Positions 45,864-63,942 of a stretch of DNA of 64,000 bases are shown one piece after another. The position numbers and the translations under genes were made by a program. Below the pieces are notes generated by a model. That model did not search any database. It had not been told where the DNA came from and saw only the letters and a list, made by a program, of their open reading frames with translations. Position 1 is the stretch's first letter. Each line of letters starts with the position of its first letter. The DNA comes from Comamonas testosteroni (lineage in GTDB: Bacteria > Pseudomonadota > Gammaproteobacteria > Burkholderiales > Burkholderiaceae_C). The stretch covers positions 4,436,501 to 4,500,500 of the forward strand of contig NZ_CP129672.1 in NCBI RefSeq assembly GCF_030505195.1. Direction: 5' to 3'.

Positions 45864-47285
45864 TCAGTTCTGCAGTACCAGCAATGCCTGGACTTCCGCC
45901 TTGGCCTGTATCCCGAGCCGCTCGAGATCAAGGCCTGTTGGTAAGTCATCTTCGAGGATGACCTTGCCTGCACACAGCACCCACTTGAGGTGGGGGCGCC
46001 CGCCGCTGGCGATGGGGCCGATGGCCGGGTCGTGCAGTCCAAAATATCGGGGGTCATCGAGTGCATATACGGCCAGATCGGCAGCCATACCGGCTGATAG
46101 ATGGCCGACACCTTCAAAGCCGAGCATCTGCGCGCCGCTGTGGCTGGCCCAGTGGATGATTTGTTCCACGGTGGTGGCGTCGCCGCCTTCTTCGCCTAGC
46201 CCTTCGGGTCTGGCGCGGGAAAGCGCGCCAGCCTGGGCGCGGTGGAGCATCCACGCAAAATGCAGCTCGCTGATCATGTCTGCGGCTTCGTTGGAGGCCG
46301 CGCCATCAACGCCCATCGTAACGGGGGAGCCCATTTTGGCTAGCGCAGGTGCGGGCGCGATTCCATCGGCTAGGCGGGCATTGCTTTGCGGACAGTGGGC
46401 AATGCCGGTACGGCTTTCTCCCAGCATCCTGATTTCCTCGGGGCTCAGGTGTACCAGGTGGGCCAGCCATACATCGGGCCCCAGCCACTCATTGCGGGCA
46501 AGATATTCGATGGGTAGACAACCGAATTTTTCACGGCAATGCTCGATATAGGCCACGGACTCCGACATGTGGCTGTGCAGTCGCAAGCCCATGGAGCGCG
46601 CGGCTCTGGCCACTTCCTTGAGCTCCTGTTTTGGCAGCGAGACATGGACAGAGGTGGGGGCCATGGCCACTTTGCTCATGGCCATGGGGGTGGTCTGGTG
46701 GAAATACTTGGCCGTGGCTTGTACCGAGCTCAGCATCTGATCCAGTGTTTCGGTGGCCTGTAACAGCTTTTCATCGGCCTCCAGCTTGCGGGTGACGGTG
46801 GCACCGCCGCGCAGCAACATGAAGCGCATGCCCAGCGCGCTGGCTTCCTCGAAAAGAATGGCGGCAGCATCAAAGTCCTGTCCGGGCTGGAACAGGTAGT
46901 GATGGTCGGCTACGGTGGTGCAGCCTGAGCGTAGCAGCTCCACCAGACCAATGCGCACGGCTATGCGCAAACGCTTTTCATCAAAGCTGCGCCGGTAGCT
47001 GAAGGGCACAGCCTGCAGCCACGGGCTCAGCGTCAGATTGATGCCCGCAGGCACACCTTTGAGTAAAGACTGGAACAGGTGGTGGTGGGTATTGACCCAG
47101 CCGGGGTAGATGACGCAGTTGCTAGCATCGAGCTGCTCCTCGTCGGGCAGGGGCGGTAGTCCGTTGCCCATCTCGGTGATGACGCCGCTCTCGATGCGGA
47201 TGTCGCGGGCAGGGCTTCTGGCCTTGCTTCCCGGCAGCCCCGTCATGATGGCTGCCGCATTGCGGATCAGAATATTATTTTTCAT
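45864..47285 (-). CDS. Amidohydrolase of the 8-oxoguanine deaminase / triazine hydrolase type
   Basis: This 473-residue cytosolic metal-dependent deaminase belongs to the subtype III amidohydrolases that includes 8-oxoguanine deaminase, AtzB and TrzN. It has the WVNTHHHLFQSLLKG motif (HxH near residue 71), LHSHMSESVAYIEHC, a late histidine in WLAHLVHLS, and the catalytic aspartate in MGVDGAASNEAADM. It is the last gene of the same-strand cluster, right after the nucleoside-type ABC transporter. The context of NCS2 permease, BMP transporter and molybdenum hydroxylase makes a purine- or pteridine-like amino heterocycle a likely substrate. Confidence 0.85.
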   Translation of the reverse strand: MKNNILIRNAAAIMTGLPGSKARSPARDIRIESGVITEMGNGLPPLPDEEQLDASNCVIYPGWVNTHHHLFQSLLKGVPAGINLTLSPWLQAVPFSYRRSFDEKRLRIAVRIGLVELLRSGCTTVADHHYLFQPGQDFDAAAILFEEASALGMRFMLLRGGATVTRKLEADEKLLQATETLDQMLSSVQATAKYFHQTTPMAMSKVAMAPTSVHVSLPKQELKEVARAARSMGLRLHSHMSESVAYIEHCREKFGCLPIEYLARNEWLGPDVWLAHLVHLSPEEIRMLGESRTGIAHCPQSNARLADGIAPAPALAKMGSPVTMGVDGAASNEAADMISELHFAWMLHRAQAGALSRARPEGLGEEGGDATTVEQIIHWASHSGAQMLGFEGVGHLSAGMAADLAVYALDDPRYFGLHDPAIGPIASGGRPHLKWVLCAGKVILEDDLPTGLDLERLGIQAKAEVQALLVLQN

Positions 47286-47292
47286 GGGGCTC

Positions 47293-48408
47293 TCAGTTCT
47301 TGGGCATCAGGCCGTCCACGCCTTGGACCAGATAGTTCATATTGGCCAGATCATCGGGCGAGATATTCTGGCCCGCTGGAACGCGTGTCGTGCCTTGCTG
47401 ATCGACCACAGGGCCGGTGAAAATCTGGCGCTGACCTGAAGCAATTTCCTTGGTGAGGGTTTCAACCTGGTTGCGCACCTCGGCAGGAATGGCTGAGTTC
47501 AGCGGTGCCAGCTTGATGATGCCGTCGCTGAGGCTGCCCATGACGCTTTCAGGCTTCCATTTGTCCGCTAGTACTTCGTTGACGACCTTGATGTAGAAGT
47601 TGCCCCAGTTTTGGGTAATAGTGGTGAGATTGGTCGTGGGGCCGAACTTGGACATGTTCGAGTAGTAGCCCAGTGTGTAGACCTTTTTCTCTTCGCCGGT
47701 GGTGACGATGGAAACGCCCGAGGTGGCATAGGCAAGGGTGTCTGAACCCAGCTTGATGAGGGCATTGGCGGCATCGCGCTCCTTGCCCGGGTCATACCAG
47801 GAATTTACCCAGATCAGGCGCAACTGAGCTTTTGGATTGGCGCTTTTCATGCCGAGTGCGAAAGCGTTCACGCCTTGCAGCACCTCGGGGATAGGGAAGG
47901 CGCCCACGTAGCCGACCACATTGTTCTTGGTCATATGACCGGCGATCACACCTTCCAGATAACGGCCCTCATACCAGCGGGCGTTGTAGGTGCCGACATT
48001 GCTTGCTGTCTTGTAGCCGGTGCCGTTCATGAAGATGATTTTGGGAGCGGTGCGCGCCACCTTGAGCGTGGGCTCCATGAAGCCAAAGGAGGGCGTGAAG
48101 ATCAGTTTGCAGCCGTCTTTCACAAAATTGCGTACAACGCGCTCTGCGTCTGGGCCTTCTGCGATGTTTTCTACGTATTGGGTGCTGATTTTGTCGCCGA
48201 GGGCAGCGACCAGTTCCTTGCGCGCCAGCTCATGCTGATAGGTCCAGCCGCTCTCTCCGATCGGGTTGGAATAGAGAAAACAGACTTTGAGTGGCTCGGC
48301 GGCTGAGGCGCTGCTCAGGCCCAGCATAAAGAGCGACGCTGCGCTCCATGCCGCAAGACAGGGAAATGCGGTCGATCGGTGCGTGTGGCGCACGTTGTTG
48401 CTGTTCAT
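47293..48408 (-). CDS. BMP-family (nucleoside-type) ABC transporter substrate-binding protein
   Basis: The 371-residue protein has a signal peptide (about 1-35, SAASLFMLGLSSASA) followed by the BMP/PnrA-like receptor domain: KVCFLYSNPIGESGWTYQHE, KLIFTPSFGFMEPTLKVA, and NVVGYVGAFPIPEVLQGVNA. BMP receptors of this group bind nucleosides, nucleobases and related heterocycles. The start at 48408 fits the AAGGAGG ribosome-binding site at seven bases; the ATG at 48414 sits too close. It follows the two permease genes in the transporter operon. Confidence 0.9.
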   Translation of the reverse strand: MNSNNVRHTHRSTAFPCLAAWSAASLFMLGLSSASAAEPLKVCFLYSNPIGESGWTYQHELARKELVAALGDKISTQYVENIAEGPDAERVVRNFVKDGCKLIFTPSFGFMEPTLKVARTAPKIIFMNGTGYKTASNVGTYNARWYEGRYLEGVIAGHMTKNNVVGYVGAFPIPEVLQGVNAFALGMKSANPKAQLRLIWVNSWYDPGKERDAANALIKLGSDTLAYATSGVSIVTTGEEKKVYTLGYYSNMSKFGPTTNLTTITQNWGNFYIKVVNEVLADKWKPESVMGSLSDGIIKLAPLNSAIPAEVRNQVETLTKEIASGQRQIFTGPVVDQQGTTRVPAGQNISPDDLANMNYLVQGVDGLMPKN

Positions 48409-48457
48409 GGTCATGCCTCCTTGGTTTTAGTCGTAGGGAACGCGATGCTTTGACACT

Positions 48458-49390
48458 TCAACTTTCCGGCTTGTAGCTCTGTCCCAGCGAGGCGGGAGAG
48501 TTCAGCTTGATCGTGGTCTTGTTGCGCGATATCAGCACCAGCACGACGATGGTGGCGATATAGGGTAGGGCGGACAGCCATTGCGAAGGGAGCTCCAGTG
48601 CCAGGCCTGAGCCTTGGACAAACAGCTGGGAGACCAGCACGCCGCCGAACAGATAGGCGCCGACCAGAATGCGCAGGGGGCGCCAGGTGGCAAAAACCAC
48701 CAGTGCCAGCGCAATCCAGCCCCGGCCTGCGACCATGCCGTCCGCCCAGAGTGGCGTGTAGAACACGGACAGAAACGCTCCGCCCAGACCGGCCATGGCT
48801 CCGCCATAGAGCACTGCCATGTAGCGGATGGCGATCACCGGGTAGCCAATGGCGTGGGCTGCGGTGGGTGACTCTCCGACGGCGCGCAGCACCAGACCTC
48901 CACGGCTGCGATCCAGAAACCAGGCGGTTGCGGCTACCAGTACCCACGAACCGTAGACAAGCCAGTGCTGGTGAAACAATGCGGTGCCCAGAAACGGTAT
49001 GTCCCCAAGTATGGGAATGGTGGGGACGGGCACGGCCGTCAGTGGCGCGGATTCATAGGACTTGCCCAAAAAGGCCGACAGACCCACTCCGAAGATGGCC
49101 AGGGCCAGCCCGCTGGCGACCTGGTTGGCCTGCATGGTCAGGCACAGATAGCCGAAGATGAGCGCCAGCGCTGCACCTGCGAGCATGCCCACTGCGGCCG
49201 CGGTCCAGGGGCCAGCTCCTGCAAAGGCAGCGGCAAAAGCAGCAACCGCGCCCACGGACATAATGCCTTCTGCGCCAAGGTTGAGCACACCAGAGCGTTC
49301 GACGATCAGCTCGCCCAGTGCGACGATGATCAGTGGTGTGCCTGCGACCAAGGTGGCCGCCAGGATGGAGGAAATCAGAGAGGTATCCAT
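48458..49390 (-). CDS. Nucleoside-type ABC transporter permease (second subunit)
   Basis: This 310-residue inner-membrane protein has about eight or nine helices and belongs to the BPD_transp_2 branch that includes the nucleoside permeases YufQ and NupQ. The conserved LGAEGIMSVGAVAAFAAAFA helix and the PLIIVALGELIVERSGVLNL opening are seen. It lies two bases after the other permease and pairs with it to form the channel. Confidence 0.9.
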   Translation of the reverse strand: MDTSLISSILAATLVAGTPLIIVALGELIVERSGVLNLGAEGIMSVGAVAAFAAAFAGAGPWTAAAVGMLAGAALALIFGYLCLTMQANQVASGLALAIFGVGLSAFLGKSYESAPLTAVPVPTIPILGDIPFLGTALFHQHWLVYGSWVLVAATAWFLDRSRGGLVLRAVGESPTAAHAIGYPVIAIRYMAVLYGGAMAGLGGAFLSVFYTPLWADGMVAGRGWIALALVVFATWRPLRILVGAYLFGGVLVSQLFVQGSGLALELPSQWLSALPYIATIVVLVLISRNKTTIKLNSPASLGQSYKPES

Positions 49391-49392
49391 GG

Positions 49393-50466
49393 TCAGGCCC
49401 TGCGGAGACCGCCTTGCCAGCGCAGACGGTAAGCAATGAACAGATCCGAGGCCAGCAGGAAAAACAGCAGCATTCCCTGGAAAACCTTGGAGATGGAGGA
49501 CGGCAGGTTCAGTTGCTGCTGGGCTTGCTCGCCGCCCAGGAAGAACAAGGCCATGATCAGGCTGCTGGCCAGAATACCCACGGGGTGCAGGCGTCCGACA
49601 AAGGCCACGATGATGGCGGCAAAGCCATAGCCGGCGGAGATTTGCGCCGTCAACTGACCCATGGGACCTGAAACCTCGGTCATCCCGGCCACGCCGGCCA
49701 GCGCGCCGCCCGCCAGTAGCCCGACCCAGATGGCCTGCTTTCCCGAAAAACCGGCATAGCGTGCGGCATCAGGTGCCTGACCACCGACCTGCATGCGAAA
49801 GCCCTGCATGCTCAATTGCAGAAACACATAGCCTGCCAGCAGTACAAACAACGCCAGAATGAAGCCAGCATGCAGGCGTGTACCTTCGATCAGCACGGGC
49901 AATAGCGCACTGTCGCCAAAGCTGCGGGTTTGGGGAAAGTTGTAGCCGTCAGGGTCCTTCCATGGGCCATAGATCAGCCAAGATGCCAGCAACTGGGCTA
50001 CATAGACCAGCATCAGCGACACCAGGATCTCATTGGTGCCAAAGCGTGTGCGCAACCAGGCTGGGATGGCCGCCCACAGCGCGCCGCCCCAGGCACCGGC
50101 CAGCACCATCGCGGGCATGGCCCAGAAAGCGTTTCGGTCTCCCACCATCAGCGCAATGCCGGTGGCAAACACGGCGCCAAGAATGAACTGACCTTCTGCG
50201 CCGATATTCCAGACTCCAGCACGAAAGCCGATGGCCAGCCCCATGCTGATCAGCATGAGCGGTGTGGCCTTGAGCAGCAACTCGCTCAGGCCATACAGGT
50301 CACTGATGGGCTGAATGAAGAAGGCATGAATGCCGTGCAGCGGTTTTTGACCCAGCGCAGCAAAAAGCAGTGCTCCGCTGAGCACAGTAAGCAGCACGGC
50401 CAGCAGTGGCGACAGCCAGCGCATGGAGCGCGAGGCTTCGGGACGTTTTTCAAGCTTGAGCCACAC
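49393..50466 (-). CDS. Nucleoside-type ABC transporter permease (first subunit)
   Basis: The product (357 residues) is a BPD_transp_2 permease with nine or ten helices, including GFRAGVWNIGAEGQFILGAV and GAWGGALWAAIPAWLR. I start it at the GTG at 50466, which has AGAGAGG six bases upstream and begins WLKLEKRPEAS; the longer frame from 50523 would lie well inside the ATPase gene. It overlaps the ATPase 3' end by 17 bases. Confidence 0.87.
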   Translation of the reverse strand: MWLKLEKRPEASRSMRWLSPLLAVLLTVLSGALLFAALGQKPLHGIHAFFIQPISDLYGLSELLLKATPLMLISMGLAIGFRAGVWNIGAEGQFILGAVFATGIALMVGDRNAFWAMPAMVLAGAWGGALWAAIPAWLRTRFGTNEILVSLMLVYVAQLLASWLIYGPWKDPDGYNFPQTRSFGDSALLPVLIEGTRLHAGFILALFVLLAGYVFLQLSMQGFRMQVGGQAPDAARYAGFSGKQAIWVGLLAGGALAGVAGMTEVSGPMGQLTAQISAGYGFAAIIVAFVGRLHPVGILASSLIMALFFLGGEQAQQQLNLPSSISKVFQGMLLFFLLASDLFIAYRLRWQGGLRRA

Positions 50467-52063
50467 GGCAGACCTCTCTTTCTGTATGAAGAGTGGGCGG
50501 TACAGAATGGAGAAGGGGGGCACTCTCTTGAGGCCACATTCCGCTCATCCACAGGCCTATGGTCTCGACATCGGTCTCGTCAATGGCAACTACGGGAGAT
50601 AGGCAGCCATCAGCAATCACGGCAATGCGGTCGCAGATTTCGAATAGCTCGTCCAGCTCTTCGGAGACCACAAGCAGGCTGGCGCCGCTGTTTCTCAGCT
50701 CAATCAGCGACTGGCGAATGAAAGCTGCCGCTCCCACATCCACGCCCCAGGTGGGCTGGGCTGCGATGAGTACTTGAGGCTTTTGCATCAGCTCCCTTCC
50801 CACGATGAACTTTTGCAGATTGCCGCCCGAGAGCGAGTTGGCAGGCGCTTGCGGTCCTGAGCATTTGACGTGAAAGCCTGCTATGCAGTTCTGCGCAAAC
50901 TGGGTCACCGCATCTCTGCGAATCAGACCATGCTGCAGCAGGCCTTGGTCATAGGCCGTCAGCAAGGTGTTTTCGGCCAGGCTCATGGCTGGAACCGCAC
51001 CACGTCCCAGACGTTCCTCTGGAACAAAGCCCAAGCCTTGTGTGCGGCGACTGGCGCTGTTCAGGTGCGCGACTGGCCGGCCATTGAGATGAATCATGGC
51101 GGCATCGCGCGGCGGAAGCGGGTCTTCCCCTGATAGGGCAAACATCAGCTCCTGCTGGCCGTTGCCGGACACTCCGGCAATGCCCAGGATTTCACCGGGC
51201 TTGAGGGTAAAGCTGATGTCCTGTAATGCCGTGCCAAAAGGATGGCTGGCAGCGCGGGACAGAGAATGGACTTGTAGCCTGGCAGTGTCTTCTGTATTGG
51301 CCATGGGCTTGGGGCGCTGGCAGGGTACCAGCTCCTTGCCAATCATCATGCGGGCCATGGAAGCTGGTGTCTCCTGGGCCGGAATGCAATGGCTCGTCAC
51401 GCGACCGCTTCGCAAAACAGTAGCACTGTGGCAAAGCTCTTGAACTTCATCCAGCTTGTGGCTGATGTAGAGAATGCTGCAGCCTTCATCGGCCAGCTGG
51501 CGCAGGGTTTCAAATAGCTTGCGCACGGCCTGCGGCGTGAGAACCGAGGTCGGCTCATCCATGATGAGTAGCTTTGGATTTTGAAGCAGGCAGCGGATGA
51601 TTTCCACGCGCTGGCGCTCGCCGACGGAGAGGGTGTGCACCAGCCGCAGCGGGTCTGTGGGCAAGCCATAGCGCTGGCCGACCGCATGAATGCGCTGACA
51701 CAGGTCAGCCAGGTCGGGGCGACCCGGCAAGGCGAGGGCCACGTTCTGCACGACGGTGAGTGTCTCGAACAGCTGAAAATGCTGAAACACCATGCCAATG
51801 CCCAGTGCGCGAGCCAGGCCGGGGCTGCCCATCTGCACGCGCTCGCTTTGCCAGTAGATCTCTCCGTCGGTTGGAGTAGTCACCCCGTAGATGATTTTCA
51901 TCAGCGTGGATTTTCCCGCGCCGTTTTCGCCAAGGATGGCTTGAATTTCACCGGGTGCCACGACCAGGTCGATGCCGTCATTGGCAACCACGGAGGAATA
52001 GACCTTGCGAATGCCTCGCAGCTCCAGCTGGGTTTTGCCTTGAGAAGGGATGAGACTTGGCAT
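50450..52063 (-). CDS. Nucleoside-type ABC transporter ATP-binding protein, two ATPase domains
   Basis: This 537-residue protein is a double-ATPase of the sugar/nucleoside (CUT2-like, YufO) class. The first domain is canonical: GENGAGKSTLMKIIYG Walker A (about residue 44), LSVGERQRVEIIRCL signature and LLIMDEPTSVL Walker B. The second has a degenerate Walker A (GVSGNGQQELMFAL) and signature LSGGNLQKFIVGREL, as usual for this class. It powers the BMP-dependent importer. It starts one base after the NCS2 permease stop. Confidence 0.93.
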   Translation of the reverse strand: MPSLIPSQGKTQLELRGIRKVYSSVVANDGIDLVVAPGEIQAILGENGAGKSTLMKIIYGVTTPTDGEIYWQSERVQMGSPGLARALGIGMVFQHFQLFETLTVVQNVALALPGRPDLADLCQRIHAVGQRYGLPTDPLRLVHTLSVGERQRVEIIRCLLQNPKLLIMDEPTSVLTPQAVRKLFETLRQLADEGCSILYISHKLDEVQELCHSATVLRSGRVTSHCIPAQETPASMARMMIGKELVPCQRPKPMANTEDTARLQVHSLSRAASHPFGTALQDISFTLKPGEILGIAGVSGNGQQELMFALSGEDPLPPRDAAMIHLNGRPVAHLNSASRRTQGLGFVPEERLGRGAVPAMSLAENTLLTAYDQGLLQHGLIRRDAVTQFAQNCIAGFHVKCSGPQAPANSLSGGNLQKFIVGRELMQKPQVLIAAQPTWGVDVGAAAFIRQSLIELRNSGASLLVVSEELDELFEICDRIAVIADGCLSPVVAIDETDVETIGLWMSGMWPQESAPLLHSVPPTLHTEREVCRVAQA

Positions 52064-52064
52064 G

Positions 52065-53456
52065 TCAGGCCGCCTTTTCTAGAGCGTGAAGGGATGGCTC
52101 CTGGCTGGTGCTGGCGTTAAACAGGACGTTCAGCAGCACGGCGGTGAAGGTGCCCAGCAAAATCCCGTTCTGGCAGAATTTGGCCAGCAGATCTGGCAGG
52201 CGCATGAAGAAGCGGTCCGCGACCAGAGGAATCATGCCCATGGCCAGGCTGATGGCCACGATGTAGGCGTTCTTGCGGTTTTCGACAAAATCCACATGGC
52301 TGAGGATGCGCACGCCCGTGGCTGCCACCATGCCGAACATCACCATGGCTGCGCCGCCCAGCACATACTGGGGAATGGATGCGGCGATGAAAGACAGTTT
52401 GGGAAAGCTGCTGATCACGATCAGCATTACCCCGGCTGTTACGCAGACCCAGCGGCTGCGTACCCCGGTGACCTGCACCAGTCCGATGTTCTGCGCATAG
52501 GAGGTGTATGTGAACGTGTTGAAGATGCCACCCACGATGGCTCCAACACCATCGGCGCGGAGGCCGCGGGCGATATCGTCTTTCTCCAACGGACGCTCCA
52601 CCACTTCTGAAAGGGCCAGGAACTGACCCACGCCCTCGATCATGATGACAACCATCACCACGCACAGCGTGACCGTGGTCATCACGTCAACGGTGGGAAT
52701 GCCAAAGTGAAACGGCGTGATGATGCGTATCCACTGTGTGGATTGCATGCCCACGAAGTTGACCTGGCCTGATGCCAGCGTGATCAAAAAGCCAACGGCG
52801 ATGCCGATCAGGACGGCGATGTTTGACAGAAAACCCTTGCACCAGGCGATGATGAAGAGAATCGTCATCAGCACGATGCCGGAGATGGCTATGTGCGAGG
52901 GAATGCCATAGGCTGGGTTGTTGATGGGGCCGTTGGGGCCGGGGATGGTGGGGTTTCCACCCGCTGCCCAGTTGATTCCCACGCGCATCAGCGAAATGCC
53001 AATGATCAGAACGACGGAGCCGGTGACCACGGGTGGAAACCAGCGCAGTAGACGGCTGACATAAGGAGCAACTAGCAGCGTGAATATGCCCGCGATGATG
53101 ACTCCGCCAAAAACCGCTCTAAGACCTAGCCCTGGTGTGCTGCCTGCTGCAATAATAGGAGCGACTGCGGTGAAGGTCACTCCCATCATCATGGGCAGGC
53201 GTATGCCCACCTTGCCAATGCCCATGCTCTGGATGATAGTCACCAGCCCGCAGCAGAACAGGTCTGCTGCGATCAGGAATGCTGTGTCCTCTTTGGTCAG
53301 TTTGAGGGCGTTGCCAATGATGAGGGGAACGGCAATCGCCCCCGCATACATAACCAGCACATGCTGCAGTCCCAGTGCTGTTAGTTTGGGCAAAGGCAGT
53401 TTTTCATCGACTGGATGTACTGCGGGCGGACTATGGTTCGTGGTGCTCGTCGTCAT
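52065..53456 (-). CDS. NCS2-family uracil-xanthine permease
   Basis: The 463-residue protein is a membrane symporter of the NCS2/NAT family with about 14 helices. It has the NAT signature QNIGLVQVTGV near residue 325, the LPKLTALGLQHVLVMYAG opening and the FGMVAATGVRIL helix. NCS2 members import xanthine, uric acid, uracil or related bases with protons. Together with the ABC transporter it gives the cluster two import routes. The xanthine-type rather than uracil-type choice is uncertain. Confidence 0.9.
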   Translation of the reverse strand: MTTSTTNHSPPAVHPVDEKLPLPKLTALGLQHVLVMYAGAIAVPLIIGNALKLTKEDTAFLIAADLFCCGLVTIIQSMGIGKVGIRLPMMMGVTFTAVAPIIAAGSTPGLGLRAVFGGVIIAGIFTLLVAPYVSRLLRWFPPVVTGSVVLIIGISLMRVGINWAAGGNPTIPGPNGPINNPAYGIPSHIAISGIVLMTILFIIAWCKGFLSNIAVLIGIAVGFLITLASGQVNFVGMQSTQWIRIITPFHFGIPTVDVMTTVTLCVVMVVIMIEGVGQFLALSEVVERPLEKDDIARGLRADGVGAIVGGIFNTFTYTSYAQNIGLVQVTGVRSRWVCVTAGVMLIVISSFPKLSFIAASIPQYVLGGAAMVMFGMVAATGVRILSHVDFVENRKNAYIVAISLAMGMIPLVADRFFMRLPDLLAKFCQNGILLGTFTAVLLNVLFNASTSQEPSLHALEKAA

Positions 53457-53540: not shown

Positions 53541-54938
53541 TCATGTGTCGTTGCGCAGGCTGGAGAGAATCAAGGGTTGAACACGCTGCATGGCTTCGGG
53601 ACTGATGCGTGCCCGCAAGCCGTCGAACTTGGGTCCCCGCGTGGCATCAATGCCAAGGCGTGAGGTGGTTCCATCGGCGGAAGAGGACGGGTCCAGCGGG
53701 CTGCCAGGTAGTCCGTCCACCATGAACAGATCTTGGTGCGGCTGGAAATGCGTTGCCATGGCCCAGAGCACTTCTTCATCGCGGGTGATGTCCACATCCT
53801 CGTCAACGGCAAACACTGTCTTCAGATATGGGTCCCAGCCCAGCAGGCCCAGCATGACCTGGCGTGCTTCTCCGGGGCGTGATTGCTTGAGCGCGACATA
53901 GGCGTGGAAGTGCGTTCCGGAATTGGGGTAGTGCACTGCAGTCACGCCGGGAAAGCGCTCCTTGAGCTTTTCCACCATCTCGGACTCTCTGGGGATACGG
54001 CCCAGATTCAGGTGCTCGGCCGAATTGCCTCCCACCACATCGAGCAGCCAGGCATCGCTGCGCTGCATCAGGGCCTCGACCTTGAAGACGTTGTTGGTGG
54101 ATCGGTCCGAGGAGTAGCCGGTGAATTCGCCGAAAGGCCCTTCTTCGGCGCGCATGCTGGGGTCAATCACGCCTTCAAGAACGAACTCCGCATGGGCAGG
54201 AACGGAAATGCCGTACTTTGGAGTTTTGACGACTTGCAGCGGAGCACCGATCAGGCCACCCGCCACGTGGCGCTCATCGATGCCATAGGGCAGGCGTGCA
54301 GCCGCGGCCAGCATGAACAGCGGATGTGCACCGATGACCATGGCCACTGGCAGGGGTTTGCCTTGGGTTTCGGCGGCCCGCAACATGCGCCACAGGTGAC
54401 CGCGCGAGTGCAGGCTGGTGGCGATCTCCGTGTCTGAGTGAACCATGGAGCGGTGATAGCTCACATTGCTTATGCCATCGAACTCGGAAATCAGAATGGA
54501 GTTGGTGATGTAGGGGCCGCGATCACTGGCGAAATGCTTGATGGTCGGGATGTCGGTATGCAGATTGATCTGGCTGCTCTTGATTTGCTGCAGGACTTTG
54601 CCGTCCTGAATCAACTGCGGCTGCAGCAGGTTTCTGCTGCGAGCTTGGTATTCGGCGTGTAGGCCCGCGGCACCCACTCCGCCCAGCATGCGGCCCACGC
54701 GTTCACGTGAGGCAAACAGATTGGTAATTAATGGGCGCTGCAGGTCCTCAATCTGGTTGAAGCGCAGCAAGGGGTGAAGACCTTGAGCGGCGAGGGACCA
54801 GACGATGGCAGTGACATCCTGGTCGCGACCGGCGGGGTGGTCGATGGACAGAACATCCTCCGGCCAGCTGTCGGCATAGGCTGCATAGAAGTCGTGCAAA
54901 TCCTGACCGGTGTCCATCATTGTTGTTCTGGCATTCAT
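53541..54938 (-). CDS. UbiD-family prenylated-FMN decarboxylase
   Basis: This 465-residue enzyme is a UbiD-family decarboxylase, which uses prenylated FMN to (de)carboxylate aromatic, heteroaromatic or conjugated acids. Marks include AARLPYGIDERHVAGGL, EGPFGEFTGYSSDRSTNN (metal and prFMN region, with the catalytic ER/D residues), and ISEFDGISNVSYHRSMV. The start at 54938 follows GAGGAGG. A UbiX gene, which makes prFMN, heads the same cluster. The substrate is likely a heteroaromatic acid but cannot be fixed. Confidence 0.92.
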   Translation of the reverse strand: MNARTTMMDTGQDLHDFYAAYADSWPEDVLSIDHPAGRDQDVTAIVWSLAAQGLHPLLRFNQIEDLQRPLITNLFASRERVGRMLGGVGAAGLHAEYQARSRNLLQPQLIQDGKVLQQIKSSQINLHTDIPTIKHFASDRGPYITNSILISEFDGISNVSYHRSMVHSDTEIATSLHSRGHLWRMLRAAETQGKPLPVAMVIGAHPLFMLAAAARLPYGIDERHVAGGLIGAPLQVVKTPKYGISVPAHAEFVLEGVIDPSMRAEEGPFGEFTGYSSDRSTNNVFKVEALMQRSDAWLLDVVGGNSAEHLNLGRIPRESEMVEKLKERFPGVTAVHYPNSGTHFHAYVALKQSRPGEARQVMLGLLGWDPYLKTVFAVDEDVDITRDEEVLWAMATHFQPHQDLFMVDGLPGSPLDPSSSADGTTSRLGIDATRGPKFDGLRARISPEAMQRVQPLILSSLRNDT

Positions 54939-56005: not shown

Positions 56006-56941
56006 TTAGTACAGTTCGATCACGGGCTGGCGCTCGGCCTTGTGGCCCAACATCTGCTCAGCCTCTTCAAAGGTGCGAGGCGCTGGCGTGGGTTCGATGC
56101 CGATCATTCGGGCGATGTTGTTGCCCAGGTAGTCCTCTAACGTTTCCTCGTCGAGGTTCATGCCCTGTGGGGGGTTGGTACACAGCACTTCCAGCAGGCG
56201 CAGCCACATGCCGGGCTCGTTGGGTGGGGTGTCGGTGCCAAAAATGATCTTGTGCTTGGGCAGTACCTTGGCAAACTCCACAATGCGCGACTGCAGGCAC
56301 CAGCCGGATTCGCAATAGACATTGGGCAGATCCATGGCGGCTTGAAAGGGCTCAAAGCAATAGACGCCGCCGGTCTGCACGCCGAAGTGGGCCATGATGA
56401 AGTTCACATTGGGGAACTCCTGAATCATGGGAATCCATTCGGAGGGGATGCTGTAGGGGCCGTCGCCCGTATGCAGCTTCACCGGCACACCCAGCTCGGC
56501 GCATTTTTCGAAAGCCGGGCGCACCCAGTCCAGCGCGCGGTCGGGCCGGTAGGCATGCATATTGGCCTGCATCTGAACCATCTTGAAGCCATGCTCCTTG
56601 ACATAGCGCTCTATGGCTTCGACGCCGTTCTTGACGCCGCAGCGAGGGTTGTAGACAAAGCAGCCAATGAAGCGGTCGGGATGCTCCTGCACGCATTTGA
56701 GGGTGTAAGCCATGTAATCGTCGATGGACTCGCGGCCCGACTTCTCACCGTCGCTCCATGTGTAGATGGTGTTGCCCTGGGGCGGCTGAATGAATGCCTT
56801 GTCGATACGGCGGGGTTTGCCATTGACGTAGTAGGGGCCATCCATGGTTTTGAGCAGCCGGTCCACGGTATAGGGTTTGCCGTCGTGCCACCAAGCCAGG
56901 TCAACCTGGTCGGTGGGGTAGCAACTGATGTCGATGATCAT
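56006..56941 (-). CDS. Amidohydrolase_2 (ACMSD-type) protein B, HxH motif lost
   Basis: This 311-residue paralog of the neighbouring protein A keeps the later histidines and aspartate (KLHTGDGPY, MAHFGVQTGG, FGTDTPPNEPG), but the N-terminal metal motif reads DISCYPTD, so H6 and H8 are serine and tyrosine. The ATG at 56941 matches the start of protein A. It may bind metal differently, be a non-catalytic partner of protein A, or have a new activity. It lies 20 bases upstream of protein A. Confidence 0.87.
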   Translation of the reverse strand: MIIDISCYPTDQVDLAWWHDGKPYTVDRLLKTMDGPYYVNGKPRRIDKAFIQPPQGNTIYTWSDGEKSGRESIDDYMAYTLKCVQEHPDRFIGCFVYNPRCGVKNGVEAIERYVKEHGFKMVQMQANMHAYRPDRALDWVRPAFEKCAELGVPVKLHTGDGPYSIPSEWIPMIQEFPNVNFIMAHFGVQTGGVYCFEPFQAAMDLPNVYCESGWCLQSRIVEFAKVLPKHKIIFGTDTPPNEPGMWLRLLEVLCTNPPQGMNLDEETLEDYLGNNIARMIGIEPTPAPRTFEEAEQMLGHKAERQPVIELY

Positions 56942-56975
56942 GTGTCTCTCCTTCTGTGATGACGGTTGAAGCGCT

Positions 56976-58088
56976 TCAGGCGGCTTCCTGAGCCTCGATG
57001 GAAACCAGGTGGCGAGTGAGTGCGCTTCGCAGCTGCGAGGCATTGAGATGGCGACCAATGAAGACCAGCTTGCTGCCGGGTGTTTCATCCCACCAGGGCA
57101 GGGCGGGCTTGAGTTCGAGCAGGCGGTGAACCCCTTGCAGCACATGGCGGCGGTCATCGCCTTGCACATGCAAAATTCCTTTGACGCGGTAGATGTCGTC
57201 GCCGTGTTCGCTCAGCAGTGCATTCAGCGTGGGCATCAGGGCATCGATATCGAAGGGCCGGTCAAAGGTGAACGACACAGAGTTCACGGACGGGTCGTGC
57301 GTGTGAGCATGCTCAGCGGACGGGCCAATGGCCGGCAGATGATCGTGTTCCTGGTGCGTGCAATGCTCGTCGCAGACATGGGCACCGATGGGGCCGCCAA
57401 TGGCTGGCTTGTGCAGAAAGTCGGGGTCTGTCATGGACAGTGCATCGGACTCATATGTCTGCAATCCCAGAATCTGGGATAGGTCCACTTGGGCCTGCAC
57501 AGTGCGCATCACAGGCGCAATGCTGTTGAGTGTGCGGATGCGGCGCTCCAGCTCCTTGAGCTCGGACTCGCCGACCAGATCGGACTTGTTCAGCAGGATT
57601 CGGTCTGCAACCACAATTTGCGTGACGGCCTGGTTGTCATACTCGGCCAAGGCTGGATCGTCCAGGTGAGGCTGGACGTGTACGGCATCTACCAGAGTGA
57701 CGATGCCGTCCAGCATCACTTTCTTGGCCACGTCGTTGTCCATGAAGAAGGTGGCGGCCACGGGCGAGGGGTCCGCCAGTCCGCTGGTCTCCACCAGGAT
57801 GTGGTCAAACTGGTCCTTGCGGTCGAGCAGCTTCTGCAGAATCTGCACCAGATCGTTGCGCACATCGACTACGCAGCAGATGCATCCATTGGCGACCTGG
57901 AAGATTTCCTCTTCGGAGGCCATCACCAGATCGGAGTCCACATCTATTTCGCCGAACTCGTTTTCGATCACAGCGATGCGGTGACCATGCTTTTCCGTGA
58001 GGATGTGATTGAGCAGCGTCGTCTTGCCTGCCCCCAGAAAGCCAGTGAGTATGGTGACGGGAATGGGGCGTTGAGAGGTCGAGGTCAT
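56976..58088 (-). CDS. CobW/P47K-family GTPase (COG0523 metallochaperone)
   Basis: The 370-residue G3E GTPase has Walker [16 protein letters not shown] (residue 15 onward), the metal-binding GCICC motif near residue 68, [13 protein letters not shown], the NKSD guanine motif, and a histidine-rich linker ([12 protein letters not shown] near residue 240) before the CobW C-terminal domain. Such proteins move zinc or other metals to client enzymes. Its overlap with the molybdenum subunit gene (ATGA) and the adjacent zinc-type amidohydrolases make them the probable clients. Confidence 0.9.
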
Positions 58089-60379
58089 GTGTAAGCTCCT
58101 TCTGTGACACGGTGGCCTTGCGCAGTCCGGGCTTTGAGCGCTTGCAGCACTTGCTCGGGACGGATGGGGTAGTGACGAAAGCGCACGCCGATGGCGTCAT
58201 ACACGGCGTTCACGATGGCCGGACCGATGGCGATGATGGGGTCCTCGCCCACGCCTTTGGCGCCATACGGACCGCCTGGATCGGGCGCGGTCTCCAGCAG
58301 CACGGTGCGTATCTGAGGCATGTCCATGGACAGCGGCATCTTGTAGTCGACAAAGTTGGCATTCAGTGAGCGCCCGGTACTCATGTCGATCTGGTAGTCC
58401 TCGTAAAGCGTGTGACCTATGCCCTGCTGTATGCCGCCTTCGATCTGGCCGGCAGCCGCAATCGGATGGATCACCTTGCCGATTTCATGCACGGGTACAA
58501 CCTGCAGTACCGTGATCTGACCGGTTTCGGTGTCCACGCTGACCTCGGCAAAGTGGGCCGCGAAGGAATAGGCCTTGGTGGGGTGATAGGTGGCTGTGCC
58601 CACCAGTTGCGCAGCCGGAATGCCTTTGCGCGCTGCGACGGCATCACGCACGCTCATGCTTTTGCCATCGGGGCCACATATCACGCCCTGTGACACCTGG
58701 AGGTTGGAGGCAGCAGTGTCAAGATAGCCTGCAGCGCGCTCCAGCAGTTGCTCTTTGACCTTCGCTGCCGCCATCTGGGCCGCTCGCCCACCCATATAGG
58801 TTGTGTGGCTGGCAAATGCGCCAATGTCCCAGGGAACGACGTCGGTGTCTCCATGCATGACGCTGACGGCCTCAAAGCACAGGCCCAGCTCCTGGGCCAC
58901 GATTTGTGCCAGCGCCGTATGGGCGCCTGTGCCCAGACCAGCAGTGCCCGTCAGCAGTACTACCGTGCCGTCTTCATTCATCTTGACGATGGCATTGCCT
59001 TGCTCCTTGATGCCGGGGTAGGCGCTGCTGCCATGCATTTCGCAGCCCATGCCCCAGCCTCGGCGTACCGGGCCCTCTTTCGGGCTTGAGCCACGCGGCC
59101 AGTGCACCTCTTGCATGCCGCGGCGTATGCAGTCGGGCAAGCCGTGGCCTACGATGGGGTGGCCCGAAGGGGCCAGATCGCCCTGGCTGACGGCATTCAT
59201 CAGCTTGAGCTCTGCCGGGTTCATGCCCAAGACCTGCGCCGCTTCATCAAGCTGCAGGTCCAGCGCAAAATAGGTCTGAACGACGCCATAGCCGCGAAAC
59301 GCGCCAGCGATGGGGCTATTGGTATAGACGCATAGCCCTTCCAGGTCCACGTTCTCGCAGCGGTACAGCGATGTCAGGGATGCGGTGCCCACGTTGGTCA
59401 CGCCCGGGCCATGTGAGCCGTAGGCACCTGAGTTGAAGACCACGCGGGCCTGGCGCGCGGTGATGCTGCCGTCCTTGCGAAAACCCTGTTTGAGCCAGAT
59501 CTTGAAGGGGTGTCGGGTGCGGCCTCCGAGGAAGGTTTCTTCCCGCGAAAACTCCATGCGCACAGGACGGCGCGTCTGTTTGGCTAGCAGCGCGCAGAGA
59601 AACTCGCTCTGGAACAAGTCCTGCTTGGCACCAAAGCCTCCGCCCATATGGTCAACCAGCACGCGCACCTTATGCAGCGGCAGGCCCAGCACTTCGGCCA
59701 TGATGCCGCGTACCATGAAAGCCGTCTGCGTGGAGATCCAGACCGTGAGATTGCCGTTGCCATCCCACTGGCACATGCAGGCGTTGGGCTCCATATAGGC
59801 GGGAGTAGGGCGGCCGCCTTCATACTCGCCTTCGAGGACAAAGTCGGCTTCCTCAAAGCCTTTGACGATGTCCCCGCGCTGTACCCGAACCGGTGGCAGC
59901 ACCAGATTGCCACCAGGCTCTCGGTCGTGAATGAGTTGGGAGGCTGGTGCGGCCAGAGCTTCTTCGGTGGTGAAAAAAGCCGGAAGTAGCTCATATTCGA
60001 CATCAATGAGATCAAGAGCCTGCTCTGCAATTTCTTCGCTGGTTGCCGCGACCACCGCAACACTTTCGCCCCAGTACCTGACCTTGCTGTCAAGAATGTA
60101 CTGATCGCAGGTGACCGATGCAGAGCGTGGGTGTGGTGAGCCTGCGTGCAGCACGCGCGGTACGTTCTCATGGGTCAGAACGGCTTTCACTCCCGGCAGG
60201 GCCAGAGCCCGGCTGGTGTCGATCTTCACGATGCGGGCATGGGCGACATTGCTGCGCTTGGTCCTGGCATACAGCATGCCGGGCAGATGCATGTCAGCCA
60301 CATATTTGGCGTCGCCTGTGACCTTGGCCAGCAAGTCGTTGCGCCTGACGCTGGTTCCGATGATGGATTTTTGGCTCAT
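58085..60379 (-). CDS. Molybdenum-binding subunit of a xanthine dehydrogenase-family hydroxylase
   Basis: The protein (764 residues) is the large subunit that carries the molybdopterin cytosine dinucleotide cofactor. It has [20 protein letters not shown] at the start, the [19 protein letters not shown] loop near residue 235, [16 protein letters not shown], and the active-site glutamate in [14 protein letters not shown] near the C-terminus. The enzyme inserts oxygen from water into an N-heterocycle. It overlaps the Fe-S subunit gene and the CobW gene by ATGA at both ends. Confidence 0.93.
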
Positions 60380-60864
60380 GATGCGCTGGCCTCCTGTGCG
60401 ATGGGGGCGGCTGCAACAATGGCGTCCAGAATTTTGGTGTATCCCGTGCAGCGACAGATGTTGCCGGCGATGGCAAAGCGGATGTCTTCGGTGCTCGGGC
60501 AGGGGTTCTCGTCCAGCAAGGCTTTGGCAGCGACCAGAATGCCGGGTGTGCAGAAGCCGCATTGCGCCGCGCCGCATTGCATAAAGCATTCCTGCAAGGG
60601 ATGAAGCTTGCCGTCTGCACCTTGCAGACCTTCAACGGTGGTGATTTCGGCTCCCTGGGCTTCTGCTGCCAGAATCAGGCAGGCGTTGGCAGGGCGGCCA
60701 TTGAACAAGATGGTGCAGGAGCCGCATTCGCCCACATCGCAGCCTTTCTTGGTGCCCGTCAGACCCATCTCGGTGCGCAGCGCGTCCAGCAGACTGCGGT
60801 TGGGTGCGACATCGAAGTCCAGCAGGTCGCCATTGACCGTGCAGGAAACATTGAGCTTGTTCAT
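60376..60864 (-). CDS. 2Fe-2S subunit of the molybdenum hydroxylase
   Basis: This 162-residue subunit binds two [2Fe-2S] clusters: the plant-ferredoxin-like one (KKGCDVGECGSCTILFNG, with a later cysteine) and the helical one (CGFCTPGILVAAKALL and NICRCTGYTKIL). It passes electrons from Mo to FAD. Its start and stop overlap the FAD and Mo subunit genes. Confidence 0.95.
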   Translation of the reverse strand: MNKLNVSCTVNGDLLDFDVAPNRSLLDALRTEMGLTGTKKGCDVGECGSCTILFNGRPANACLILAAEAQGAEITTVEGLQGADGKLHPLQECFMQCGAAQCGFCTPGILVAAKALLDENPCPSTEDIRFAIAGNICRCTGYTKILDAIVAAAPIAQEASAS

Positions 60865-61730
60865 TGTTGTGCCTCCTTGATGGCTTGTGTCAGTGAGCGA
60901 GCAGTCAGCACGCGCACCATGTCCCGGCGGTAGCCAGCGCTGGCGCGCACATCGCTGATGGGTGTCGCTGCAGTAGCTGCCGCCAGACTTGCTGCTGCGA
61001 TATCCTGTTCATCAGGTATGCGCCCCTTGAGCAGAGCCTCTGCGGCCGCAGCCCGCAAAGGCGTGGGCCCCACTGCGGCAAGAACGATGGATATGGAGTC
61101 CACTTTTCCTGCGGCGTTGAGCGTCACGCTGACCGCCACGCCGACGGTGGCCAGCTCCATCTGGCTGCGCCGGCCATGTTTGATGTAGACCTTGCCGGTG
61201 CGCTGAGCAGGTGCGGGAAGTTGGATATGGGTGACGATTTCATCGGTCGCCAAAGTGGTGCGTCCCCTGCCTTGCAGAAAATCTTCTACCCGGCATTGGC
61301 GCTGCCCTTGCGTGCCGTAGATGTGCAGCACGGCACCGTCGGCAATCAGCGGCGGCAGGCTGTCTGCCGAAGGCGAGGCACGGCAGACATTGCCCACCAG
61401 CGTGGCGCGGTTGCGGACCTGGATGGAGGCGAAGTCTGTGCAGGCCTTGGCCAGACTGGCGTAGTGCCTGAGTGCGATGTCCGAGGTCTCGATCTGTCGG
61501 GTGGTCACCAGTGCGCCCAGGCGCAGACCGCCTTCCAAAGTGAAACTGAAGTCATCCAGGCCCGGAATCTTCTTGATGTTGACCACATGCGAAGGTGCTC
61601 GCACATGCTCTTTCATCATCACCAGCAAATCCGTACCTCCGGCCATCAGGCTGGCAGTGCCTGCGCAGCTTTGCAGCAGTTCTGCGGTCTCCTGCAGGCT
61701 GGTGGGTTCTGCATACTCAAAGAACTTCAT
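60861..61730 (-). CDS. FAD-binding subunit of the molybdenum hydroxylase (CoxM-like)
   Basis: The 289-residue subunit belongs to the FAD-binding CoxM/PaoB-like group. It shows the SLMAGGTDLLVMMKEHV flavin loop near residue 28 and IQVRNRATLVGNVCRASPSA near residue 110. It starts 16 bases after ubiX. Together with the next two genes it gives a complete FAD-2Fe2S-Mo hydroxylase with subunits in the order seen in CO dehydrogenase-type enzymes. Confidence 0.93.
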   Translation of the reverse strand: MKFFEYAEPTSLQETAELLQSCAGTASLMAGGTDLLVMMKEHVRAPSHVVNIKKIPGLDDFSFTLEGGLRLGALVTTRQIETSDIALRHYASLAKACTDFASIQVRNRATLVGNVCRASPSADSLPPLIADGAVLHIYGTQGQRQCRVEDFLQGRGRTTLATDEIVTHIQLPAPAQRTGKVYIKHGRRSQMELATVGVAVSVTLNAAGKVDSISIVLAAVGPTPLRAAAAEALLKGRIPDEQDIAAASLAAATAATPISDVRASAGYRRDMVRVLTARSLTQAIKEAQQ

Positions 61731-61746
61731 GCTTGTGACTCCTGTT

Positions 61747-62355
61747 TCATGAGACTTCGCTGCGGCGGATGGCCGAAAGCCCTTGCCAGCGCTTAACGGT
61801 GTTCACTTCGATATCGAAAAGATCCAGGACCCGGCCCAGCGAGTGGTCCACCATCTCGTCGAGATTGGCTGGGCGGGTGTAGAAGGCGGGCACCGGCGGG
61901 GTGACGATGGCGCCCATTTCCGTCACGGCCAGCATGTTTTTGAGGTGGGTGAGTGTCAGCGGCGTCTCTCTTGCCATCAGCACCAGGCGGCGGCGCTCCT
62001 TGAGCATCACGTCGGCAGCGCGAGAAATCAGCGTGGAGCCAATGCCGTTGGCAATCTCGGCCAGCGTTTTCATCGAGCAAGGTGCAATCACCATGCCCAG
62101 TGATTTGCAGGAGCCGCTGGCAACGCAGGCGCCGATGTCCTCGTTCTTGTGAACCTGTGCCGCCAATGCAGTGACCTGAGACAGCTTGAGATCGGTTTCC
62201 GCGCCCATGGTGATCAGCGCGGCGCGGCTCAGGATCAGGTGCGCATCAATGTCCGTACCCTGCAAAAGCTGTAGTAGCCTGTAGCCATAGATGAATCCGG
62301 ATGCTCCGGAGATGGCCACGATCAGACGCTGACGGTTGACCTGCTGCATCTTCAT
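61747..62355 (-). CDS. ubiX: UbiX-family flavin prenyltransferase
   Basis: The 202-residue product matches UbiX, which makes prenylated FMN from FMN and dimethylallyl phosphate. It has LIVAISGASGFIYGYRLLQ at the start (FMN loop), VIAPCSMKTLAEIANGI, and RRRLVLMARETPLTLTHLKN near the end. The start is the ATG at 62355 (MKMQQVNRQ) with GGGAGA upstream. It is the first gene of the same-strand cluster and very likely serves its UbiD enzyme. Confidence 0.92.
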   Translation of the reverse strand: MKMQQVNRQRLIVAISGASGFIYGYRLLQLLQGTDIDAHLILSRAALITMGAETDLKLSQVTALAAQVHKNEDIGACVASGSCKSLGMVIAPCSMKTLAEIANGIGSTLISRAADVMLKERRRLVLMARETPLTLTHLKNMLAVTEMGAIVTPPVPAFYTRPANLDEMVDHSLGRVLDLFDIEVNTVKRWQGLSAIRRSEVS

Positions 62356-62372
62356 GAAACTCTCCCAGACAT

Positions 62373-62783
62373 ATGAAAGCCATGACCCCGGAACAGGCCT
62401 GGAAGGAAATCGGTGAGCGCTATGCGGTTCCCGGTCGTGCGGCTGAGCTGCTGCTGCAGCAGGACGAGCGCGGGGTGGATGTGGTTCTGGAGCTTTTCTG
62501 CGAATGCGCGCAGGCTCGTGGATTCCGGCTCGATGCCCGGGACAGGCAAGAGGCTGATGATTGCGTGCGCGATTGGCGTGCGCAGGTGGTGCAGCCACTG
62601 CGTCAGGTTCGCCGTGCGCTGAAGCCCATGATGGAGCGGGTGAGCGATGCTGCGCAACTCAGAGCCCAGATTCAAGCGTCCGAGCTGCAAGCCGAACGCG
62701 TGCAAGTGGCGATGCTCTGCGAGTGGCTCGATAAATACCTGGCTCGATCTGCTGCGGCGAGTGCCGCTGGCTGCAAGATCTGA
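62373..62783 (+). CDS. TIGR02444/DUF2390-family protein
   Basis: The 136-residue protein resembles the TIGR02444 (DUF2390) family: PGRAAELLLQQDERGVDVVL followed by an LFCECAQARG helix. The function of the family is unknown to me. The start is the ATG at 62373 (or 62382). It is divergent from ubiX across only 17 bases and is followed by a LysR gene. Confidence 0.65.
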   Translation: MKAMTPEQAWKEIGERYAVPGRAAELLLQQDERGVDVVLELFCECAQARGFRLDARDRQEADDCVRDWRAQVVQPLRQVRRALKPMMERVSDAAQLRAQIQASELQAERVQVAMLCEWLDKYLARSAAASAAGCKI

Positions 62784-62961
62784 AGCTCCCCTTGAGAACG
62801 TGAGGGTAGAGCACAGCATCCTGGCCTCCTGCTTAGGAAAACCGACCCGACGAAGCCCTTTCGTCACGGGGATGAGTCAATGCTGGCAGAAGGTGAAGCT
62901 TTGTAAAACTATCGAGGGCTTATATATTCATTGCTGATTCATATGATTTGGCGATAAATAT

Positions 62962-63942
62962 ATGTCGATTACCCTACGTCAGCTGGAAGTGTTTGTCGCG
63001 GTTTCTGAGGAGGGTAGTCTCACCAGAGCCGGTGAATCGCTGGGCTTGCCGCAGTCCAGCATCAGCACCCAACTCAAGGAACTGGAGGGGTTGCTCGGCC
63101 TCAAGCTCTTCGATCGTCACACGCGCATGCTGCGCCTGACCGAGGGCGGCATGCAGATACTGCCGCTGGCGCGCAAAACACTGGCGGATCTGGCGGCCAT
63201 GCTCGACGGCTCAGCGCAGCTCAAGACGCTGGAGAGGGGGCGGGTTTCGATTGCGGCTTCTTCCATGCAGGCGGCTCTGGTGCTTCCCCGAATGGTCAAG
63301 TTCTTCAGCGAGATGCATCCGGGCATCAAGATTGAGCTGCTCGATGTTACCCAGGACGATGTCATCCAGATGGTCAAAGGCGGTGCTGTGGATTTTGGCG
63401 TGGGTACGGCCTTTGGTGACCATGGAGATTTGTCTATGAAAACACTGTGGTCAGAACCTTTTTTTGCCGTGATGCCGCACGACCATGCTTTGGCGAAAAA
63501 AAGAAGCGTGACCTGGAAGGAGTTGCAAAAACACCCCTTGATAGGATCTCGCAAGGGAAATCCGGTGAGAACGGCGCTGGAGTTTTCTCTGGCTAGTGAA
63601 GGCGTGTCGCTGAAATACGTGCATGAAGTTGCACTGCCGTTGACCATTGTCGGTATGGTTGCAGGGGGACTGGGTGTGGGTGTTCTGACGGGCTCTACAC
63701 GCCGCCTTTCGGAGTCGATGGGGTTAGTGCTTAAGCCTATTTCCCAACCTCGAATGGAGCGAGAAGTCGTGCTAGTGCTTCATGCCGCGCGTTCACTGTC
63801 TCCTGCAGCAAAGAAGTTCAGTGACGCATTGGTGAGTTGGACGAGTCTTAAAAGATCGCGCTCTAACGAAGATGACAATGATGGCCATTGGTTCTGCAAT
63901 GTTTGCTATCAATTTGGATGCGCACTAAAGCATCAGATGTGA
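62962..63942 (+). CDS. LysR-family regulator, probable controller of the 45.9-62.4 kb cluster
   Basis: This 326-residue LysR protein has the HTH at 1-60 (MSITLRQLEVFVAVSEEGSL, then GLPQSSISTQLKELEGLLG) and the effector-binding domain with DFGVGTAFGDHGDLSM. The last 30 residues after TSLKRSRS are atypical and may be a misread tail. It is oriented away from the cluster and separated from ubiX only by the DUF2390 gene, so it likely controls the cluster. The inducer is unknown. Confidence 0.85.
   Translation: MSITLRQLEVFVAVSEEGSLTRAGESLGLPQSSISTQLKELEGLLGLKLFDRHTRMLRLTEGGMQILPLARKTLADLAAMLDGSAQLKTLERGRVSIAASSMQAALVLPRMVKFFSEMHPGIKIELLDVTQDDVIQMVKGGAVDFGVGTAFGDHGDLSMKTLWSEPFFAVMPHDHALAKKRSVTWKELQKHPLIGSRKGNPVRTALEFSLASEGVSLKYVHEVALPLTIVGMVAGGLGVGVLTGSTRRLSESMGLVLKPISQPRMEREVVLVLHAARSLSPAAKKFSDALVSWTSLKRSRSNEDDNDGHWFCNVCYQFGCALKHQM

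Follow-up and report, generated by a model that had tools for sequence, protein, structure and literature searches.

We propose that a cluster of 14 minus-strand genes in Comamonas testosteroni imports an oxidised pteridine and converts it to xanthine by a McNutt-type route, a reading to which we give a probability of roughly 0.55. The cluster lies in a stretch of 64,000 nucleotides (contig NZ_CP129672.1, positions 4,436,501 to 4,500,500; hereafter the window), part of a genome of 6.08 Mb in two contigs. Among its products are a PRK12393-type deaminase, a three-subunit molybdenum (Mo) hydroxylase, the tandem amidohydrolases AmhB and AmhA, and a UbiD decarboxylase with its UbiX partner (Table 1).

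McNutt's work of 1963-64 on Alcaligenes faecalis is said to have traced isoxanthopterin through 7-hydroxylumazine, tetrahydroxypteridine and xanthine-8-carboxylate to xanthine. In the proposed pathway, the imported substrate would be isoxanthopterin, and probably pterin-6-carboxylate too. The deaminase would yield a 2,4-dioxopteridine of the lumazine type, and the Mo hydroxylase would oxidise its pyrazine ring to 2,4,6,7-tetrahydroxypteridine. AmhA and its partner AmhB would then open the 6,7-dioxo amide and close the ring again, now as an imidazole, to yield xanthine-8-carboxylate, the reaction of EC 5.5.1.3; CobW would perhaps load the metal of AmhA. Finally, UbiD would use the prenylated flavin mononucleotide (prFMN) made by UbiX to decarboxylate xanthine-8-carboxylate, and the resulting xanthine would enter ordinary xanthine and urate breakdown. 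Control may be exerted by a variant xanthine riboswitch before amhB in many relatives, and presumably by the LysR-type regulator in the window.

Deamination, pyrazine oxidation, contraction and decarboxylation in A. faecalis match the cluster enzymes in number and kind; the difference is that the former are known to us as enzyme activities only, whereas genes for them are proposed here. Since the McNutt route makes its carboxylate by ring contraction, both amidohydrolases gain a role. Chemistry and gene context together lead us to infer AmhA/AmhB as the isomerase and UbiD/UbiX as the decarboxylase, and context also supports the direction of the pathway. Amide hydrolysis followed by reclosure is plausible for a metallo-amidohydrolase. 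Tetrahydroxypteridine and xanthine-8-carboxylate are assigned to one mass in the available text of PMC5941619, so the contraction would be an isomerisation.

The first-pass annotation had read the cluster as a complete route for a purine-, pteridine- or pyrimidine-type acid. A nitrogen heterocycle as substrate, and above all its pteridine option, is backed by the deaminase signature, the co-occurrence of the genes, the transporter of the xanthine permease family, a relative in which a single gene separates amhB from urate genes, and the xanthine-riboswitch relative in many amhB leaders. It had also held that no characterised pathway has this gene set; a biochemical pathway has reportedly been described, and no genes for it were found in the open-access literature searched by pathway or compounds, a search that most subscription papers fell outside. 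Tetrahydroxypteridine cycloisomerase (EC 5.5.1.3), reportedly named in the 1960s, is not known to have a gene. If the proposal is correct, the cluster provides candidate genes for this activity and a genomic context for isoxanthopterin deaminase, and soil bacteria, S. meliloti among them, would have a link between purine breakdown and oxidised pterins (pigments of insects, debris of folate).

Conservation and active sites of the cluster enzymes

A genome scan with an AmhA/AmhB alignment gave 327 relatives, and the 80 best by AmhA similarity were kept as loci; 56 of them span at least 20 kb and 24 are shorter, so that the counts favour close relatives and underestimate genes near the locus ends. 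With identity thresholds set by hand, gene by gene, these 80 loci hold AmhA in 80, AmhB in 78, a close UbiD in 77, CobW in 71, UbiX in 60, the NCS2 permease in 52, the three-subunit Mo enzyme in 41, the PRK12393 deaminase in 39 and a window-type ATP-binding cassette (ABC) transporter in 11-12. A second type of Mo enzyme, recognised by its 2Fe-2S subunit, occurs in 22 further loci. Beyond the locus edge, the deaminase was found at 2.3-3.3 kb in 6 of the 18 genomes searched (Cupriavidus and one Ralstonia-named); these positions were compared by hand, with contig identity confirmed for five and assumed for L036.

Co-occurrence in other genomes, proposed in the first-pass annotation as a check, was borne out when 399 sampled genomes from this order were examined. 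Five of them have AmhA, each time with AmhB in tandem, and UbiD at 65% identity or more in exactly the same five, with one further genome at 40%. The deaminase occurs in 18 genomes, all five AmhA genomes among them. The block is patchy among genomes yet kept together and, because it recurs in many genera, the grouping of its genes is not due to chance. One locus with 82% AmhA identity (L065) comes from a record titled Enemella evansiae, with an actinobacterium label, reflecting horizontal transfer or contamination. A gene weakly similar to arylmalonate decarboxylase/EutA, below cut-offs, is found near the cluster in 12 of the 80 loci (L021, L027, L048, L054, L059, L063, L064, L068, L072, L074, L076, L079).

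The deaminase exceeds the cut-off of the NF009059/PRK12393 model (678 of 543 bits). The 8-oxoguanine-deaminase-like label of the first-pass annotation fails: the curated PRK08203 cut-off is missed, with 368.4 of 532 bits, and we reject this identity. By far the best solved relative is 2PAJ (E 1e-163, residues 4-469, full length), which we take to be an isoxanthopterin/pterin-6-carboxylate deaminase; next comes 3HPA (6.3e-67), presumably an 8-oxoguanine deaminase template. In Hall's 2010 work, a Gln, a Tyr and two Thr reportedly bind the pteridine in isoxanthopterin deaminase. The window enzyme carries Q72, Y130, T211 and S212 at these positions. Gln72, Tyr130 and Thr211 are kept in all 39 cluster deaminases. 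At the fourth position 33 of them have Thr; the other 6, which form the window's clade (the window, five close relatives and the copy of ATCC 11996), have Ser. 3HPA reads APCS there. The enzyme resembles 2PAJ in family over its full length and in the Gln, Tyr and Thr pocket letters, and differs by Ser in place of the second Thr. Judged by sequence, a predicted isoxanthopterin/pterin-type activity is a good assignment. Hall 2010 is cited as the source for isoxanthopterin deaminase in the accessible parts of PMC5270733 and PMC11121863.

As for the Mo hydroxylase, its Mo-binding subunit (moCo) reaches only 299.6 bits where the cut-off of TIGR02965 is 849.5, and we reject its identity as a canonical xanthine dehydrogenase. 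Another gene of the same genome, at 2.04 Mb, is the canonical enzyme (1326.6 bits).

The two ACMSD-type amidohydrolases of the first-pass annotation both belong to PF04909, but only one has an intact metal site. In AmhA, the ligands H6, H8, H155, H183 and D235 (HxH, two later His and Asp) are kept in 80 of 80 sequences. AmhB, transcribed first of the pair, lacks the HxH motif in 78 of 78: its first position is Ser in 77 and Gly in one, and its second is Tyr in all; the later His, His, Glu and Asp are kept in every case. In a tree of 72 rows, made of every third locus and 19 database proteins, AmhA-type and AmhB-type rows part at a branch with 100/100 support, and the split is therefore old. 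The predicted model of AmhA is an ACMSD-type barrel with a mean predicted local distance difference test (pLDDT) score of 78.2; decarboxylases, the LigJ hydratase, a hydrolase of pyrone-dicarboxylate and iso-orotate decarboxylase all score no more than about 3 Z units below its best fold match. By sequence, its relatives found in the PDB are solely 5-carboxyvanillate decarboxylases, all weak matches. The pair thus shares with known ACMSD-type amidohydrolases (LigW, ACMSD, iso-orotate decarboxylase) the Pfam family and, for AmhA, the predicted barrel; it differs in its weak sequence similarity to any solved chain and in the tandem arrangement where one partner has lost HxH.

UbiD decarboxylases use an Arg and two Glu in catalysis. 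The corresponding R163, E266 and E271 are kept in all 75 sequences aligned, from 77 loci having the gene (a coverage rule removed the others), and the ubiX partner lies within the cluster. The nearest PDB match is 6H6V, which we take to be the furan-acid decarboxylase HmfF; H309 and R317 align with its H296 and R304, as counted by hand. Beyond these shared residues and the Arg-Glu-Glu set, the cluster enzyme differs from HmfF and other UbiD decarboxylases by forming a separate clade tied to amhAB. When the full genome of the window (G000) was searched with Pfam, the cluster's own gene was the one UbiD-family member found; for the usual UbiD step of ubiquinone synthesis, no obvious dedicated gene was seen there. 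In S. meliloti ABS7 (L082, 18513-19104), where the gene table is incomplete and has no gene at this site, the ubiX match is in two pieces; it is in one piece in strain 1021 (L083). On pSymB of strain 1021, amhAB occupies 151.2-153.1 kb and ubiD 149.7-151.1 kb.

Leader RNAs resembling the xanthine riboswitch

Many relatives carry an RNA element before amhB that is related to the xanthine riboswitch (NMT1 motif, RF03054). A search of 50 genomes with RF03054 gave matches at E 0.1 or better in 27; in 20 a match stands just before amhB, by positions converted by hand. Eighteen of these stay below the gathering threshold of 36 bits and two reach it (L042, 36.8; L060, 37.3). Rfam at gathering score, run on 29 loci, returned two tRNAs and the L042 match. 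Trained on 21 leaders, a model detects the element ahead of amhB in S. meliloti and in 35 of the 80 loci, 19 of which had supplied training sequences; it gave no match in the window. The element also precedes cobW in L035 and L045, and weak matches precede a substrate-binding-protein gene in L049, L067 and L080. Nine genomes of the 399-genome sample match the model at E 1e-4 or better: the four strongest matches (at least 64 bits) precede amhB in four of the five AmhA genomes and the others have at most 45 bits, and the 46-bit line between the two groups was set once the scores were known (64.4 or more in one group, 44.6 or less in the other). A more diverged leader, missed by the leader model R1, precedes amhB in L058, L061, L065, L069 and L073 (GAGTAGAAGC ... 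AATTGCTC), with the P2 stem almost absent in L065 and L069.

The helices are supported by two-sided changes at 10 of 17 pairs, a value reached in none of 500 shuffles, with the helix layout set by hand from Rfam and row L034 entered six bases off. The amhB leaders share the P1, J1 and P2a layout of RF03054; most are below the Rfam threshold and they differ at one pair of the core. In the structure described in the available text of PMC8266621, the 2-oxopyrimidine part of xanthine is gripped between G10 and U40, and stem P2a ends beside the pocket with pair 13-38, which is U-A there. By our own mapping onto this crystal numbering, pair 13-38 is Watson-Crick in 22 of 22 ordinary members (4 G-C, 18 U-A), a set that includes close relatives and comes partly from AmhA-positive genomes, partly from the order sample. 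It is Watson-Crick in none of 35 amhB leaders: 30 have G.G, three a U.G wobble and two G.A. In the leader from S. meliloti this pair is G.A, and in those before cobW it is A.A in one and A.G in the other. The search motifs prescribe most core letters, which accounts for part of the conservation, but they leave positions 13 and 38 unconstrained. The ordinary RF03054 matches of L098 and L107 gave no motif match and hence fall outside the 22. In L090, L095, L097, L105, L106 and L109, ordinary xanthine riboswitches occur in pairs, one copy on each strand, separated by a few hundred bases.

With less than even odds, we suggest that the amhB leader is a riboswitch variant shifted from xanthine to a compound of the pteridine pathway, and that the genes under its control are the first known to contract a pteridine enzymatically to a purine. 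This joint suggestion includes contraction by a two-subunit metallo-amidohydrolase, and a prFMN enzyme decarboxylating a carbon between two nitrogens. Candidate ligands would be tetrahydroxypteridine, 7-hydroxylumazine and xanthine-8-carboxylate. If so, the altered pair beside the ligand would make the change in specificity directly testable. PRK12393 deaminases are among the published gene associations of xanthine riboswitches in the accessible portion of PMC7373994, where the ligands named are xanthine and uric acid, and isoxanthopterin appears in the list of compounds bought. In that portion, the word 'variant' occurs three times, all in the reference list, and no description of an amhB-leader variant was seen.

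Urate genes and competing readings

In one relative (L053), genes for PuuE, OHCU decarboxylase and allantoate amidohydrolase, all over cut-off, lie one gene upstream of amhB, together with an HIUase-like gene that falls just below its cut-off (79.5 of 87.45 bits). The window's genome encodes, besides the canonical xanthine dehydrogenase, two PuuE proteins, one at window positions 9357-10277. This PuuE gene accompanies an allantoin/urate-type set (9333-16581) in which a GntR gene, a permease and a hydantoin-racemase-like gene were recognised by eye.

In favour of the pteridine-to-xanthine route, PuuE exceeds its cut-off in 27 of 30 AmhA-positive genomes, hand-chosen from the 80 loci, versus 35 of 150 genomes of the order. 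Several points weigh against it. This control set holds three AmhA-positive genomes (G000, G002, G158; the coordinates of G002 are identical to those of the genome of L053) and other lineages. PuuE is in view at L053 alone among the 80 loci, and no PuuE match was found in C. testosteroni ATCC 11996 despite its near-identical cluster. The deaminase family occurs without AmhA in 13 of the 399 genomes, some of the 80 clusters have no deaminase in view, and a cytosine-deaminase-like gene, below the family cut-off, is found near the cluster in four loci and on S. meliloti pSymB. Rfam, motif and leader-model searches of the window itself found no riboswitch. The fold matches of AmhA span several reaction types, and the fold alone therefore cannot name its reaction. 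Chemistry of prFMN at a carbon between two nitrogens would be unusual.

A folate route would start with deamination of pterin-6-carboxylate; hydroxylation at C7 would follow, UbiD would remove the carboxylate at C6, and AmhA and AmhB would then hydrolyse the ring. Here UbiD would act on a carbon with a carbon neighbour, its usual chemistry. The substrate is suitable too: 2PAJ-type enzymes accept pterin-6-carboxylate, as the accessible part of PMC5270733 states. Lumazine-6-carboxylate is named as a candidate intermediate of bacterial folate breakdown in the available text of PMC9513972, where Variovorax is reported to deaminate folate and the later fate of the pterin part is left open. Such an order, with UbiD decarboxylating a pterin carboxylate, had been raised in the first-pass annotation; it is feasible, yet fits less well than the McNutt contraction. 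It explains the xanthine-riboswitch relative and the urate neighbours less directly and requires a further, unassigned route after decarboxylation, and we consider it rather unlikely.

An unrelated heterocycle, such as 8-oxoguanine, a triazine, or another pyridine or pyrimidine acid, could be hinted at by the resemblance of the BMP protein to an atrazine-binding protein and by the triazine hydrolases within the deaminase superfamily. Yet the deaminase misses the 8-oxoguanine deaminase cut-off and differs in its pocket letters, and deamination of 8-oxoguanine leads to urate, with no need for UbiD or AmhA; we hold this reading improbable. Equally within the pteridine-to-purine direction, roles could be swapped, with the ACMSD-type AmhA as the decarboxylase and UbiD acting elsewhere or on a side substrate. 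The weak 5-carboxyvanillate decarboxylase relatives of AmhA would agree with this, as would iso-orotate decarboxylase among its fold matches, an enzyme whose substrate is a carboxylated uracil. Two decarboxylases, however, would leave no enzyme for ring contraction, and a side role of UbiD is unlikely because it is conserved about as tightly as AmhA (77 of 80 loci; the same five of 399 genomes); we hold the swap improbable too. Breakdown of riboflavin or lumichrome was rejected: the published lumichrome cluster was searched for by P450, amidases and catechol dioxygenase, according to the available text of PMC12746152, and the present cluster has no P450 or catechol dioxygenase gene.

Cluster layout

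The first-pass annotation described 14 minus-strand genes with several ATGA overlaps, and both the order and the overlaps are as described. From ubiX down to the deaminase, all reading frames are open: ubiX is followed by the three Mo hydroxylase subunits, cobW, the two Amidohydro_2 genes, ubiD and the NCS2 permease, then by the ABC ATPase, two permeases, the BMP protein and the amidohydrolase/deaminase. ATGA is found at three junctions (moFAD/moFeS, moFeS/moCo and moCo/cobW). One more gene pair overlaps by 17 nucleotides, and the remaining gaps measure 1-99 nucleotides, depending on the starts chosen; ubiX probably starts at the ATG near 62355 instead of an upstream GTG. The LysR gene placed at the head of the cluster is present, but divergently, on the plus strand. 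C. testosteroni ATCC 11996 (L002) has counterparts of all 15 genes of Table 1 at 97-100% protein identity, in unchanged order.

Table 1 Genes of the cluster and its divergent regulator, in window coordinates
Feature	Position	Strand	Basis and remarks
Divergent LysR-type regulator	62962..63942	+	PF03466, PF00126
ubiX, flavin prenyltransferase (prFMN maker for UbiD)	61747..62355	-	PRK06029, TIGR00421 over cut-off; start inferred from ATG
Mo hydroxylase flavin adenine dinucleotide (FAD) subunit (moFAD)	60861..61730	-	PF00941, PF03450; XdhB equivalog cut-offs not reached
Mo hydroxylase 2Fe-2S subunit (moFeS)	60376..60864	-	PF01799; ATGA overlap
Mo hydroxylase Mo-binding subunit (moCo)	58085..60379	-	PF02738, PF20256; below canonical xanthine dehydrogenase cut-off
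cobW-type GTPase (metallochaperone family)	56976..58088	-	PF02492, PF07683
amhB, Amidohydro_2 paralogue without HxH metal motif	56006..56941	-	PF04909
amhA, Amidohydro_2, metal site intact; candidate catalytic subunit for pteridine ring contraction	55038..55985	-	PF04909
ubiD, prFMN decarboxylase; candidate xanthine-8-carboxylate decarboxylase	53541..54938	-	TIGR00148 over cut-off
NCS2 permease, xanthine permease subfamily	52065..53456	-	TIGR03173 pbuX, 517 of 414 bits
ABC transporter ATPase	50450..52063	-	PF00005
ABC permease 1	49393..50466	-	PF02653; start uncertain (GTG)
ABC permease 2	48458..49390	-	PF02653
BMP/PnrA-type substrate-binding protein	47293..48408	-	PF02608
Predicted isoxanthopterin/pterin-type deaminase	45864..47285	-	NF009059 over cut-off; 2PAJ

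The nearest solved chains of the BMP protein are 3S99 and the atrazine periplasmic binding protein 6PI5.

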